Assembly: GCA_000378885.1 (NCBI GenBank)
Contig: KB900461.1
Location: forward strand, 1-64,000
Source of the DNA: an actinobacterium SCGC AAA044-N04
GTDB lineage: Bacteria; Actinomycetota; Actinomycetes; Nanopelagicales; Nanopelagicaceae
Length of the DNA: 64,000 bases
Reading direction: 5' to 3'
Each line of letters opens with the position of its first letter. Position 1 is the first letter of the stretch. Below the pieces are notes generated by a model that was not told the DNA's origin, did no database searches, and was given only the letters and a program-made list of their open reading frames with translations. Positions 2,893-8,413 of the stretch are shown here, piece after piece. The position numbers and the translations under genes are program-made.

Positions 2893-3531
2893 TTATACGA
2901 CTCCGTATAAACGATCGCCGGCATCGCCAAGACCTGGAACGATGTAACCATGTTCGTTGAGTTTTTCATCTAGAGCACCAGTAACAATATTGATTGGCAC
3001 TTTACTTGCAGAGAACTCATCTTCCACAGCTTTCACACCTTCAGGTGCTGACAAGATGCAAATTGCTGTGATCTCAGTTGCACCTAGGTCGAGCAAATAA
3101 TGAAATGCTGCAATTAGAGTTCCACCTGTTGCAAGCATGGGATCTAGAACAAACACGTGTCGACCAGATAAATCTTCAGGCAAACGATTGGCATATGTAC
3201 TTGCCTTTAAAGTTTTTTCATCGCGAACCATTCCAAGGAAGCCAACTTCAGCATTTGGCATCAACTTGCTCATGCCTTCGAGCATTCCAAGTCCTGCTCT
3301 TAAAATTGGAACAACGACTGGACGAGGTTCGGCCATTTTTAGGCCTTTGGTCTTAGTAACCGGAGTTGTTATCTCAACACTGTGTGTGCGAATGTCACGA
3401 GTTGCTTCATAGGCCAGAAGTGTTACTAGCTCTTCGACTAAACGGCGAAATGTTGGGGAATCAGTACGTTCATCGCGCAAAACCGTCAATTTGTGGGCAA
3501 TAAGCGGGTGATTGGCAACATGAACTTTCAT
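2893..3531 (-). CDS. upp: Uracil phosphoribosyltransferase
   Basis: Salvages uracil to UMP using PRPP. The PRPP-binding segment [19 protein letters not shown] and the uracil-binding C-terminus [13 protein letters not shown] are present, and the length (about 212 residues) is usual. Two in-frame ATGs exist at 3537 and 3531. I chose 3531 because the hexamer TAAGGT (3544 to 3539 on this strand) sits 7 bases upstream of it, the leaderless pattern seen repeatedly in this window, and because family members start [10 protein letters not shown]. First gene of the upp-malic enzyme-dedA operon. Confidence 0.96.
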
Positions 3532-3585
3532 AGGCATTACCTTACAGGGCTTTCAATCCTTTCCAATGAGTGGAATCATCTGAGC

Positions 3586-4128
3586 ATGGCCGATTTCGAT
3601 GATGACCTCGCAGAAGACATCGAAGAGTTTGACGTTTTAGCCGAAGATTCGCCAAAAGTAATCAGTCTCACAAATGAGTTAGATATAGCCGTAGCTGCAT
3701 GGCATGAAGATGGCCGTTGGACCTTAGGAATATTGCCTGACCCAAATGACATCGGCCAAATAATTTCAAGGCTTAAGGCGCAACAAACAAATGGTGGATC
3801 TATTGCACTTATTTCAATTGATGAAGAGTTTTTCATTCTGATTCGTGTTTTAGGTGCCCACATTTCACTTTTCCTGAGTGATGCAACTGCAGCCCTAGAT
3901 TATGAAGTTGCAGAAGAGCTATTAGAGATTGCAGACATTCCACTTCCAGAAGATGATGATGAGTCAAGTCCGATTGGTAATTTAGAAATCTTGGCAGATC
4001 TTGGAATGAATGGCATGGAGATTTCAGCGCTCTGTGATGACGGTGAGTTATTTCCTGACGAACAACTCGAAGCGATTGCTAATCGATTGGGATTCGGCGA
4101 TCAGTTTGCAGAGTTATTAGAACTGTGA
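3586..4128 (+). CDS. tRNA adenosine deaminase-associated protein
   Basis: A 180-residue acidic protein immediately upstream of tadA. It starts MADFDDDLAEDIEEFDVLAED and is rich in Asp/Glu; its position and composition match the actinobacterial family named for its linkage to tadA. The molecular role is not established. The reading frame is open to 3493, but that would run into the divergent upp start, so the internal ATG at 3586 is preferred. The stop overlaps the tadA GTG as GTGA, indicating coupled translation. Confidence 0.8.
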   Translation: MADFDDDLAEDIEEFDVLAEDSPKVISLTNELDIAVAAWHEDGRWTLGILPDPNDIGQIISRLKAQQTNGGSIALISIDEEFFILIRVLGAHISLFLSDATAALDYEVAEELLEIADIPLPEDDDESSPIGNLEILADLGMNGMEISALCDDGELFPDEQLEAIANRLGFGDQFAELLEL

Positions 4129-4583
4129 ACGATGAAGAGTTAATGCACGCAGCTTTAGCTGTTGCGCAACAAGCTAGCGCCAGTGGGGATGTTCCTGTTG
4201 GTGCGCTTATCATTAATAATGCTGGTGAGATTATTGCTACTGGCCACAACGAGCGTGAATTAAACAATGACCCAACTGCGCACGCAGAAATTGTTGCTAT
4301 TCGAAAAGCTGCACAAGCGGTGGGGGAATGGCGATTAGAGAACCACACAATTGTTGTGACACTTGAGCCTTGTCCGATGTGTGCTGGTGCAATCGCTCAA
4401 TCTCGAATCGCAACCCTTGTCTTTGGAGCGTGGGATGAAAAGGGCGGTGCTGTTGGCTCGGTTTGGGACGTAATTCGCGATCCACGCGCGCTTAATAAGC
4501 TAGAGGTTCGTGGCGGAGTCCTTGAAGAAGAGTGCTCAGCAATGTTGAAAGAATTTATACAAGGAGTTCGTAAGAAGGATTAA
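4125..4583 (+). CDS. tadA: tRNA-specific adenosine deaminase
   Basis: Deaminates the wobble adenosine of tRNA-Arg(ACG) to inosine; that tRNA is encoded in this window at 38152-38224. The zinc site is complete: H53-A-E55 in TAHAEIVAIR and C83/C86 in PCPMCAGAI. The length of 152 residues is typical. GTG start, overlapping the stop of the partner gene by 4 bp. The 3' end overlaps the convergent permease gene by 29 bp. Confidence 0.95.
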   Translation: MNDEELMHAALAVAQQASASGDVPVGALIINNAGEIIATGHNERELNNDPTAHAEIVAIRKAAQAVGEWRLENHTIVVTLEPCPMCAGAIAQSRIATLVFGAWDEKGGAVGSVWDVIRDPRALNKLEVRGGVLEEECSAMLKEFIQGVRKKD

Positions 4584-6891
4584 GAATCACCATAGATCCT
4601 TCATCTTCACCGACCATGCCTTCAGCACGCATCTGAGAACCAACTTCAAGGCCTGCAATTTCGCGACGACCTAAGAACTGTAATGAAACACCGCCTGTTT
4701 CATCCCAGATTTCAACTTGAAGAGCTGGAGCAGAGCCACGGGGCGCAGTCTTAATCGAAGTTACACGTCCTTGCACTTGAGCGCGCTTGCGCCACTCAAT
4801 CTCCCCAATTTTGGTGACATTTTCTGCGTAATGGCTTATTGGTTCAACATTTATTGGGGCATTTGTTTTAGGAGTAGGCACTGATTGCTTCACTACTTTC
4901 TTAACTTCTTGTGGGTGATGCACATCGAGCTTTGCACCAGATGTAATGCGAGCAACGTCAAAAGGAATAATCGTTGCAACTACGCGAGGTAGTTGAGAAA
5001 TAGGAGCAGCGATTTCTTCAGCAGTTTGATCGTGTAGCAAGCGACCTAAGAAGCGTGAGTAAGAACGTCTCGGTAAAAGAAGAGTTAATTCAACTTCTTC
5101 TTTTTCTGTTAGGCGAATTGCATAATCCAAAGCTGAATTAGCTAATCGACGATCAGGGCAGTCAATAAGTTCCAAAGTCACATCATCAAGAGCATCAGAT
5201 TTAGCCCACGCCTTCTGAATCTCTTCAGCACGACGATCATCAATGACAAAGTGAACTGCAGTTAAGTTACGTGGCTTAAGGCTGCGGGCGTAACGAACTG
5301 CGCCAACGGTTGCAATATCAACGCTATCTACCAAAATTGTTACATCGTGACGAGCAATTGACGTAGCACGCTCTTGATGGCGTTTCACTGAAAGTGCTTC
5401 TTGTTCGCGGTCATACTGGCGACGCAAGCGCAAGAAAGTAACAACAAGAATTGGGGCAGTGACAAGCACAAGCCAGGCACCTTCAGTGAATTTAACAACT
5501 GAGAAAATGATTACGATTAAAAATGACACAGAGCCAGCAAGTGCATTAATAAATACTTTTGCTTTCCAGTGTCCATCTTTGTTGCGCAAGGCGTGTCGTG
5601 TCATTCCAAAGCCTGCCAAAGTAAAGCCAGTGAAAACACCAAGGGCATAGAAAGCAACCAAGTGCTCAACTGATCCGGCAGTTATGAGAACGAGGAAAAT
5701 TCCGCCGCCTGAAAGAAGTAGGATTCCATTAGAGAAAGCTAAACGGTGTCCACGCTTTGTTAATTGGCGAGGTAGATATCCATCAGTTGCAACGAAGTTA
5801 CAGAGCAAAGGGAAAGCGCTGTATGTGGTGTTTGCGCCAGCGAACAAAATTAACATTGTCGCGGCCTGAACCATTACGAACATTATTTGGCCAAATACAC
5901 CGTCACCCACAATTGTCTTGGCAATCTGAGAAATAACTGTTGGGGTGCCAGATTCATATGGCATTGCATAAATACGGTGGGCGAACCAAGAAACACCTAG
6001 AACTAATGTGCCGAGCAAACCGCTCATAATAAACAAGGTACGGCGGGCATTGACCGCTTCTGGTTGTTGGAAGAGGGCAACACCATCAGAGATGGCCTCA
6101 AGTCCAGTTAGTGATGAACCACCATTAGCAAATGCGCGAAGCAAGATGAAAATTGCGGCAAATGTGAGAAGTCCTTGGCTCGCTCCAAGTGGAACCGCAC
6201 CAACCTGATCAGTCGATAAAGTCTCAAGGGTGCCATTGAAGTTGCGGTAGATGCCGATACTAAAAACTATGAACATGCAGCTAATAAAGAAGTAAGTTGG
6301 CAAAGCAAACGCCTTACCTGCTTCTTTCACTCCACGCAGATTGCCAAATGTTAACAACACTATGACAAGTAGAATCATTGGAATTTTCCATGGATGCAAT
6401 GAAGGGAAAGTTGAAATGATTGCTGCCACACCAGCTGCTGATTGGATTGCTACCGTCACGATGTAGTCCAGCATCAATGCAACAGCTGCAATTTGTGCAA
6501 CCACGGGACCGAAGTTATCTCGGGAAACTATGTATGCCCCGCCAGTTTTTGTATAAACGTTAATTACATTGCGATATGACAAAGTAATGATTAATAAGAT
6601 GATAAGAACTACCGCTGTCATTGGCATCAAGATTGCAAATGCAGCTAAACCAAATGCTGGAAGGAGTGCGATAAGAATCTGTTCTGATCCATATGCAGAA
6701 GATGAAATACAATCGCTAGATAAAATTCCAAGCGCGTATCTCTTGCTTAAACGTTGGTGCCCTAAGGAGTGACGATTGAGAGGGTTTCCTAATAATCGCC
6801 GTTTAAGAGTGTAGAAAAAGGAATCTTTTAGGTGTGCATGGTCTTGAAGCACAACCGGTGTTGGGGCGTCATCAGTCCATGACTTAGGCAC
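4555..6891 (-). CDS. APC-family permease with a C-terminal OB-fold domain
   Basis: A 778-residue protein. Residues about 40-490 form an APC/KUP-like transporter with roughly twelve hydrophobic segments (SSDCISSSAYGSEQIL near the first). About 515-640 looks like a cytosolic USP-like domain (VTILVDSVDIATVGAVRYARSL). The last 80 or so residues (EWRKRAQVQGRVTSIK to the end) resemble an OB-fold, a nucleic-acid-binding type domain. As I recall, related actinobacteria encode such an OB-fold protein and an APC permease as separate neighbouring genes. GTG start at 6891 with AAGGAG seven bases upstream. Substrate unknown; amino acid or K+ is possible. Confidence 0.85.
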   Translation of the reverse strand: MPKSWTDDAPTPVVLQDHAHLKDSFFYTLKRRLLGNPLNRHSLGHQRLSKRYALGILSSDCISSSAYGSEQILIALLPAFGLAAFAILMPMTAVVLIILLIITLSYRNVINVYTKTGGAYIVSRDNFGPVVAQIAAVALMLDYIVTVAIQSAAGVAAIISTFPSLHPWKIPMILLVIVLLTFGNLRGVKEAGKAFALPTYFFISCMFIVFSIGIYRNFNGTLETLSTDQVGAVPLGASQGLLTFAAIFILLRAFANGGSSLTGLEAISDGVALFQQPEAVNARRTLFIMSGLLGTLVLGVSWFAHRIYAMPYESGTPTVISQIAKTIVGDGVFGQIMFVMVQAATMLILFAGANTTYSAFPLLCNFVATDGYLPRQLTKRGHRLAFSNGILLLSGGGIFLVLITAGSVEHLVAFYALGVFTGFTLAGFGMTRHALRNKDGHWKAKVFINALAGSVSFLIVIIFSVVKFTEGAWLVLVTAPILVVTFLRLRRQYDREQEALSVKRHQERATSIARHDVTILVDSVDIATVGAVRYARSLKPRNLTAVHFVIDDRRAEEIQKAWAKSDALDDVTLELIDCPDRRLANSALDYAIRLTEKEEVELTLLLPRRSYSRFLGRLLHDQTAEEIAAPISQLPRVVATIIPFDVARITSGAKLDVHHPQEVKKVVKQSVPTPKTNAPINVEPISHYAENVTKIGEIEWRKRAQVQGRVTSIKTAPRGSAPALQVEIWDETGGVSLQFLGRREIAGLEVGSQMRAEGMVGEDEGSMVILNPSYELLV

Positions 6892-6906
6892 TCGAAGCTC
6901 CTTTTT

Positions 6907-6950: not shown

Positions 6951-6994
6951 GCATTGGTTTCAACTTCTCGCAGGCTGAGCGTATGATTACCTCC

Positions 6995-8413
6995 ATGCAT
7001 ACACAGTTATATATTGATGGCCAATGGGTAGATGGCGTAAGCAAGGTTGCCGTCTACGATCCAAGTGATAATTCAGTAATCACCGAAGTTTCTATGGCCT
7101 CAGATGCCCAGTGCGAGGCTGCTATTGCTGCAGCCGATGCCGCAGCAGTGGCGTGGGCAAAAACGGCCCCTCGATTTAGATCTGAGATTTTGCGAAAAGC
7201 GTTTGAAATTATGACCAGTGAAATTGAAGCGATTGCTACTTTAATTTCTCGCGAAAATGGAAAAGCGATGCCGGATGCTCGCGGTGAAGCGGCATATGCG
7301 GCAGAGTTTTTCCGTTGGTTTGCCGAAGAAGCTGTACGTACTCCTGGAGATTTCCGTAAATCGCCATCAGGAGATAAGCGAATCCTTGTTACTCACCAAC
7401 CAATTGGTCTTTCTATTCTTATTACGCCATGGAACTTTCCAGCAGGTATGGCAACTCGCAAGATTGGGCCAGCCGTTGCCGCAGGTTGCACGATGGTTTT
7501 AAAACCAGCAACTGAAACACCGTTAACCGCTATGTACATTGTTGGCATCATGGAACGTGCTGGTTTGCCTAAGGGTGTTCTTAATTTAGTTTTGCCAGAA
7601 AAAACTGGACCAGCAATTTCAAAGATGCTGCATGATCCACGCGTTAAGAATCTTTCATTTACTGGATCAACTGAAGTAGGCCGCGTGCTACTAAAAGAGG
7701 CTGCAGACCAGGTTATTCGCTGCTCTATGGAGCTAGGCGGAAATGCACAAGTGGTTGTTCACGATGATGCAGATCTTGCAGTCACAATTCCGCAGTTGCT
7801 TCTTGCCAAGATGCGCAATGGTGGGGCAGCTTGCACATCAGCAAACCGTATCTTTGTTCAACGCGGAATTTCAGAAGCATTTATTAGTGAAATGACTAAG
7901 TCAATGAGCACATTTGTTGTAGGCCGAGGTACTGATGCCACAACTACTCTTGGCGCTTCTGTTTCAATGAAAGAGCGCAACAAGATTGCTCAAATCGTTG
8001 ATGAATCTGTTGCAGCTGGTGCCAAGGTTGCACTTGGCGGCGTTAAGCCTGAAGGTGAAGGCGCTTTCTATCCAGCAACAGTTTTAATCGTTGATAAAGA
8101 CAACCCAATTCTTCTTCATGAAATCTTTGGTCCAGTAGCACCAATTGTTATTTTTGATACTGATGAAGAAGGGATCAAACTTGCTAATGACACTGATTTT
8201 GGTCTTATTAGTTATGTGTTTTCTTCAAACCTCACCCGCGCCTTGCGCACAGCAGAAGCAATGGAATCAGGAATGGTTGCCATTAATAAAGGTGTTATCT
8301 CAGATCCAGCAGCTCCCTTTGGTGGCGTGAAGCAATCAGGGTTGGGCCGTGAAGGTGGATTTGATGGCATCCATGAGTTCTTGCAGACCAAGTACATCGG
8401 GGTAGAGATTTAA
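6995..8413 (+). CDS. gabD: Succinate-semialdehyde dehydrogenase family aldehyde dehydrogenase
   Basis: An NAD(P)-dependent aldehyde dehydrogenase, most like the GabD group oxidising succinate semialdehyde to succinate. In this 472-residue form the catalytic residues are visible: N147 in TPWNFPAGM, K170 in LKPATETP, E246 in MELGGN and the nucleophile C280 in GGAACTSANRI. The frame also allows ATG at 6983, but TATGAT at 6982-6987 is a near-consensus -10 hexamer 7 bases before the ATG at 6995, and the protein then begins MHTQLYIDGQW as is usual. Exact aldehyde substrate uncertain. The stop lies 1 base from the 3' end of the convergent tRNA-Ser. Confidence 0.88.
   Translation: MHTQLYIDGQWVDGVSKVAVYDPSDNSVITEVSMASDAQCEAAIAAADAAAVAWAKTAPRFRSEILRKAFEIMTSEIEAIATLISRENGKAMPDARGEAAYAAEFFRWFAEEAVRTPGDFRKSPSGDKRILVTHQPIGLSILITPWNFPAGMATRKIGPAVAAGCTMVLKPATETPLTAMYIVGIMERAGLPKGVLNLVLPEKTGPAISKMLHDPRVKNLSFTGSTEVGRVLLKEAADQVIRCSMELGGNAQVVVHDDADLAVTIPQLLLAKMRNGGAACTSANRIFVQRGISEAFISEMTKSMSTFVVGRGTDATTTLGASVSMKERNKIAQIVDESVAAGAKVALGGVKPEGEGAFYPATVLIVDKDNPILLHEIFGPVAPIVIFDTDEEGIKLANDTDFGLISYVFSSNLTRALRTAEAMESGMVAINKGVISDPAAPFGGVKQSGLGREGGFDGIHEFLQTKYIGVEI

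Follow-up and report, generated by a model that had tools for sequence, protein, structure and literature searches.

A KimA-type transporter fused to an OB-fold domain in freshwater actinobacteria: a candidate potassium importer

The question raised by this locus is why a membrane transporter, a cytosolic domain and an OB-fold should be found in one polypeptide, and what the third of these contributes to the first. The arrangement had been read from the DNA of the freshwater actinobacterium SCGC AAA044-N04, in a stretch of 64,000 nucleotides that is referred to here as the window. Transporter and fold are both known already; the chain which joins KimA to an OB domain is a new variant, and no description of such a fusion was found in the open-access literature.

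The fusion gene and its transporter part

The gene runs through 778 uninterrupted codons in a single reading frame, and the N-terminus of its product is conserved among homologues from the same genus. The features of the locus are as follows.

4555 to 6891, minus strand: KimA-OB fusion gene, 778 amino acids, GTG start (open reading frame and full-length homologues)
6898 to 6902, minus strand: AGGAG, likely site of ribosome binding, 6 bases upstream of the GTG (sequence)
5395 to 6816, minus strand: transmembrane domain, residues 26–499, of predicted KUP/KimA K+/H+ symporter type
4939 to 5358, minus strand: cytosolic alpha/beta domain, residues 512–651 (model and residue mapping)
4822 to 4938, minus strand: variable, unstructured linker, residues 652–690 (column identity and pLDDT)
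4558 to 4821, minus strand: OB-fold domain, residues 691–778 (motifs G-R-R-x-I-x-G and N-P-x-Y-E-L)
4125 to 4583, plus strand: MafB19-like/CMP deaminase family gene, presumably tadA-like; convergent neighbour, outside the system
6983 to 8413, plus strand: aldehyde dehydrogenase gene; divergent neighbour, outside the system

The deaminase gene and the 3′ end of the fusion gene overlap by 29 bases. At 3493–4128 on the plus strand lies a gene for a 211-residue protein without a Pfam family, whose place next to upp and the deaminase gene is conserved in numerous relatives. Apart from tRNA in the window, Rfam searches of the window and of six fused loci returned no family, with no ydaO-type riboswitch seen in either, and an NCBIfam search of the window protein gave a sole match far below the cut-off.

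Comparison of the protein with all PDB sequences by phmmer produced a sole target, KimA (YdaO), the K+/H+ symporter of Bacillus subtilis (6s3k, 8b70 and 8b71; E 1.2e-104, residues 26–629), with which it shares an APC/KUP fold and 37% identity over 584 aligned positions. Pfam AA_permease_2 matches the transporter part (E 4e-20). An AlphaFold2 model of the full-length chain, built with 61 fused sequences (mean pLDDT 76.6), comprises a membrane domain made of helices, a cytosolic domain of alpha/beta type (residues 515–651 in the model), an unstructured linker and a C-terminal beta barrel, and its top PDB match in Foldseek is KimA with bound c-di-AMP (8b70, E 3.1e-35). The pairing of an APC/LeuT-type transmembrane fold with a cytosolic alpha/beta domain, by which the KimA subfamily is recognised, is present in both proteins. 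The original prediction of a transporter, a cytosolic domain and an OB-fold in one chain is therefore borne out by the phmmer match and the model of the OB domain, while its description of the cytosolic domain as ‘USP-like’ was only roughly right: the domain is alpha/beta and lies within the KimA match, but Pfam reports no Usp family there, and the accessible part of PMC10284832 likens the KimA cytosolic domain to the PPAT fold.

According to the part of PMC6994465 available, the residues of KimA involved in K+ coordination and proton transfer include D36, Y43, T121, E233 and Y377, all five of which are kept in the fusion protein (D60, Y67, T146, E265 and Y415). With residue roles taken from the available parts of PMC6994465 and PMC10284832, the full set of tunnel and K+/H+ positions in the window protein is D60, Y67, D142, T146, T262, E265 and Y415, and the KimA residues D36, Y43, D117, T121, T230, E233 and Y377 are found unchanged in all 44 fused and all 14 unfused rows, counts from which one fragment (L064, genome G121) was excluded. 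The position of KimA S125 is Q in 43 of the 44 fused rows. The fused subfamily also has residues of its own, namely E496 in the last transmembrane helix and D522, D525, D580, R582, R608, R609 and D621 in the cytosolic domain. Since the seven K+/H+ residues are kept, K+ is the likely substrate, and the fusion protein is likely a KimA-type K+/H+ symporter of the KUP branch of the APC superfamily, a transport role deduced from kinship in sequence. The original prediction had named neither the KimA type nor K+ as the substrate.

The OB-fold domain and the spread of the fusion

When the C-terminal 105 residues were modelled alone by AlphaFold2 (pLDDT 88.4, pTM 0.77), the result was an OB beta barrel, as had been predicted; the closest structures are the OB domains of archaeal RPA (Z 13.4 and 13.3), followed by PolC (12.4), AspRS (12.0) and RecG (11.8). 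The likeness to the OB folds of the RecG wedge, RPA and AspRS/AsnRS is thus one of fold, with Z of 11–13, whereas the domain of the fusion is attached to a transporter and has no detectable sequence relative in the PDB, where a search with the OB profile gave chance matches only (best E 0.83, to G-beta). Pfam assigns no family to the OB domain of the window, while among fused relatives PF01336 is matched in 42 of 49 (E up to 1, best 2.4e-7), besides RecG_wedge. At least 90% conservation is seen in 21 of the 88 OB columns. The 49-row OB alignment was chosen by its GRR pattern from 60 non-redundant named loci, and conservation of GRR within it is by construction; in an alignment of 61 rows not chosen by motif, G741 and R742 are invariant and R743 is conserved in at least 90%.

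The linker varies between 25 and 116 residues, with a mean column identity of 29%, and residues 654–688 have a pLDDT under 50 in the full-length model. In five comparisons within the genus, pN/pS was 0.04–0.24 for the OB domain, 0.25–0.64 for the linker and 0.09–0.19 for the membrane domain; the OB domain is under purifying selection.

The original prediction had allowed for a frameshift error that joined two genes, and we find a frameshift, chimera or misassembly hardly credible, given that selection acts on either side of the linker and that the same fusion stands intact in single-contig genomes and in isolates. The proposed search for further cases of the fusion found it in many independent assemblies of the genus: of 60 relatives searched for the fusion protein, 55 gave a match, with 29 rows aligned across the join, and single-contig genomes of the genus that carry it are G015, G063, G083, G101, G116 and G130. 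Among named chromosomes it is present in CP015605 (IMCC19121), where it is 100% identical to that of the window at the rounding of the alignment, and in CP016769 (Candidatus Planktophila lacus) and CP015606 (IMCC26077). Outside the genus, fused loci occur in Kitasatospora mediocidica, Streptomyces humicola, Streptomyces sp. ICBB 8177, Planosporangium thailandense and Pseudonocardia acidicola, and overall about 100 loci were found in many families, finished chromosomes and isolates. In a scan of GTDB contigs at least 588 loci were confirmed, and the 80 best among them are all fused, a figure that says nothing about the rate of fusion in the subfamily, as the query was the fusion itself and the best loci only were considered. 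One apparent exception, genome G091, where OB and permease had appeared as separate matches with a stop, was rejected, as tblastn and the profile place both in one frame of 775 residues. At another locus (L061, genome G105) the fused OB domain is very diverged and lacks the GRR motif; it was missed by BLAST and recovered by the profile (E 2e-7).

In a tree of the KimA domain, for which diverse rows were selected by hand (43 or 44 of them fused, with the window added for the gain and loss tree), the fused rows form one group with L043 (genome G046) outside it. With two plasmid copies added, two changes in total are needed, one gain and one loss of the OB domain; these copies (L188 and L189) group with fused Streptomyces and Kitasatospora with a support of 98, all tree supports being SH-aLRT only. 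In the OB tree, which has few columns, one branch (support 100) separates 40 fused from 35 standalone domains. From the two trees together the fusion looks single and old. Both plasmid copies, at 6046–7998 of L188 and 5992–7944 of L189, are OB-less members of the fused KimA subfamily, 650 residues long, on linear plasmids of Streptomyces, and that of L188 adjoins deoxysugar genes. The KimA-like gene of L043 (6966–8807) is basal, lacks an OB domain and already has several of the rebuilt pocket residues discussed below; it is possibly the state before the fusion.

Gene neighbourhood and potassium import

The original prediction stated that other actinobacteria keep an OB-fold gene and an APC permease as neighbours, and this was confirmed. 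Of 19 relatives whose OB gene stands alone, 14 (counted by eye) have a KimA-like permease on the same contig, no more than about 5 kb away; of the other five genomes, G040 has no KimA match, G041, G043 and G045 have the two on different contigs, and in G048 the standalone OB gene is about 145 kb from KimA-like genes. The order in the unfused cluster is dut, OB, DUF3159, TrkA, TrkA, permease and RNA methyltransferase (L037 and L046), with variants in L038, L039 and L044, the first of these alone having a match to DUF3159. The unfused permease, which we take to be of the Rv2690c type, belongs to the same superfamily and to the original gene cluster, but differs in its lack of an OB domain, in its identity of 33–37% and in a pocket nearer to that of KimA. 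The standalone OB-fold protein, presumably of the Rv2694c type, is the same domain with the same GRR and NPxYEL motifs, encoded by a separate gene and slightly basic where the fused OB is acidic; in Streptomyces clavuligerus it is annotated as ‘OB-fold nucleic acid binding domain-containing protein’.

In the genome of the window the cluster reads dut, DUF3159, TrkA, TrkA, methyltransferase and acnA, without OB or permease, and the single KimA match and the single OB match of that genome both fall on the fusion gene. A TrkA–TrkA pair with DUF3159 and without an adjacent permease is seen at 8026–9960 of L036 (G000:C11), as orphan gating subunits. Within the genus the fusion gene lies away from the TrkA pair, while in G047 it occupies the place of the permease, with no standalone OB, and at six loci (L119, L122, L133, L137, L145 and L153) it directly follows the TrkA pair; in G056 the fusion and the unfused set stand together in one cluster. 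Because the OB gene and the KimA-like permease are neighbours elsewhere, the fusion argues for a joint function, as was originally proposed, and because the fused OB is a separate gene in the same cluster of related bacteria, it suggests a part for the OB protein in potassium uptake that has so far gone unrecognised.

Other fused loci adjoin different potassium-related genes. The fusion gene of P. thailandense has an ATGA overlap with kdpD, and after kdpD comes a response regulator of the OmpR type, to judge by its place kdpE; in S. humicola the fusion gene adjoins a KdpD-like kinase and a response regulator, with an unfused KimA nearby. At that locus (L148, 7627–14860) the fusion stands between the kinase part of a KdpD-type protein and a KdpD N-terminal domain encoded apart from it, as if KdpD had been split.

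Considering the other means of potassium import in the genus, TrkH/KtrB (PF02386) and KdpA were each found in 0 of 41 genomes, absences that refer to Pfam families in genomes most of which are incomplete, with importers of unknown families possible. The membrane subunit by which a Trk/Ktr system is recognised is hence missing, despite the TrkA pair of the window’s own genome, the one genome searched for that pair; DUF3159 is present in 36 of 41. A K+ channel pore (ion-channel) domain occurs in 2 of 41 genomes, and Kup exceeds the cut-off in 1 of 41, G013, a sub-threshold match in G023 being the fusion gene itself. The G013 gene (L184, G013:C32:5342-6691), the only classical Kup among the 41, could reflect transfer or contamination. 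Since TrkH/KtrB and KdpA were not found, this freshwater genus probably imports K+ mainly through the fusion protein. For Streptomyces venezuelae, the accessible part of PMC10117811 lists a pair of KimA-like proteins, with neither TrkH nor KtrB; one unfused KimA-like permease there is Vnz_27465, and the RCK_C domain of Vnz_27460, numbered next to it, does not bind c-di-AMP.

The c-di-AMP pocket and the role of the OB domain

Control of potassium by c-di-AMP is the textbook association of KimA. In the fused subfamily, however, the published c-di-AMP pocket is rebuilt, judging from the aligned sequences: V457 is replaced by E and F568 by R in 44 of 44 fused rows, A481 by D in 39, and V506 by F, N580 by D and S582 by T in 41 each. 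H579 is kept in all 44 and R337 in 40, and at Q581 there is R in 27 rows and Q in 14. Nearer to KimA are the 14 unfused rows from actinobacteria, which mostly have V457, Y568, S481, V506, N580 and S582. Of the B. subtilis-type pocket (R337, V457, P479, V506, H579, N580, Q581 and S582), the window protein keeps R337, H579 and Q581 and has changes at the other five, which sets it apart from the KimA proteins that c-di-AMP inhibits as in B. subtilis, a class more restricted than the KimA subfamily and not required for membership of it. Several of the published contacts are made by the backbone, as stated in the available part of PMC10284832, and binding is hence compatible with side-chain changes. 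The c-di-AMP cyclase (DAC) domain PF02457, and with it the means of c-di-AMP synthesis in the host, was found in 0 of 41 genus genomes, including 0 of 10 near-complete ones, in a search whose control detected it in 11 of 14 known genomes. The fusion protein thus differs from KimA in its OB domain, in several pocket residues and in a genus without a DAC domain.

A direct contact between the OB domain and the pocket through the subfamily residues was considered and is not supported. These residues are mostly kept in the OB-less plasmid copies, in which 31 of 36 (L188) and 33 of 36 (L189) conserved cytosolic sites are retained, as compared to 29–32 of 36 in fused Streptomyces and Kitasatospora; the pocket changes, too, are mostly kept in both copies and partly in L043. 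As the rebuilt pocket occurs regardless of the OB, the residue changes are no evidence for such a contact. The position of D621 is R in both copies, though two related sequences prove nothing.

The reading that we favour, and to which we give somewhat better than an even chance, is that of a KimA-type importer with a fused OB accessory or regulatory module linked to K+ uptake or to the TrkA pair. The symporter would import K+, probably as the main importer of the genus, and the OB domain would be an accessory subunit held by the flexible linker at the cytosolic side, most likely a protein-binding or small-ligand regulatory module that acts on the transporter; alternatively, it may connect the transporter in trans with the TrkA pair, as a putative partner. 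Elsewhere among actinobacteria this kind of OB protein has a gene of its own in the cluster of OB, DUF3159, TrkA, TrkA and permease, a K+-related cluster from which both kinds of part came, and in the window’s genome the TrkA pair still stands in its old place, with the adjacent permease lost. That the OB is indispensable is countered by the two Streptomyces plasmid copies within the fused subfamily and the basal L043, all without it. Tolerance of its loss in the plasmid copies, together with the flexible and variable linker of such unequal length, would fit an OB that senses nothing and only helps the transporter to fold, to form a stable dimer or to take up its position, yet such a passive part accords poorly with the high conservation of about a quarter of its columns and with the same two motifs in standalone OB proteins attached to no transporter; we consider it rather unlikely.

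Still less probable, in our estimation, is nucleotide sensing in place of c-di-AMP control, whether by the OB or by the rebuilt cytosolic pocket. The lack of a DAC domain in the 41 genomes and the changed contacts V457, F568, A481, N580 and S582 would suit such a sensor, but the pocket change predates the OB or is independent of it (L043, L188 and L189), and the search for DAC covered the genus only. Nucleic-acid binding or membrane tethering, to which the original prediction had pointed, finds its best argument in the nucleic-acid-binding OB domains that are the nearest folds (RPA, PolC, AspRS and RecG) and in the PF01336 and RecG_wedge matches. A common fold shows no function, however, the gene cluster concerns K+ and not nucleic acids, and the OB domains of fusions, with a median net charge of −3 (n=106; −3 in the window), are acidic, versus +2 for standalone ones (n=35), so that a tether for RNA or DNA appears very improbable. 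Ligand-gated transport, which the original prediction had also raised, may still apply.

Beyond the favoured reading of an importer with an OB module, we offer tentatively, and with more doubt than confidence, a wider proposal: an undescribed actinobacterial complex for K+ uptake, where control of a KimA-type symporter would fall to an OB subunit, the TrkA pair and DUF3159 instead of c-di-AMP, and in which the freshwater lineage would have welded transporter and OB together and come to rely on that chain as its main K+ importer. The fusion associates TrkA gating subunits with a K+ transporter in the absence of TrkH, and gives a lead to what a conserved OB protein without a name, and perhaps DUF3159 as well, may do across Actinomycetes. 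In a lineage with no detectable c-di-AMP cyclase, a rebuilt pocket and a fused OB, the control of K+ import without c-di-AMP becomes testable.
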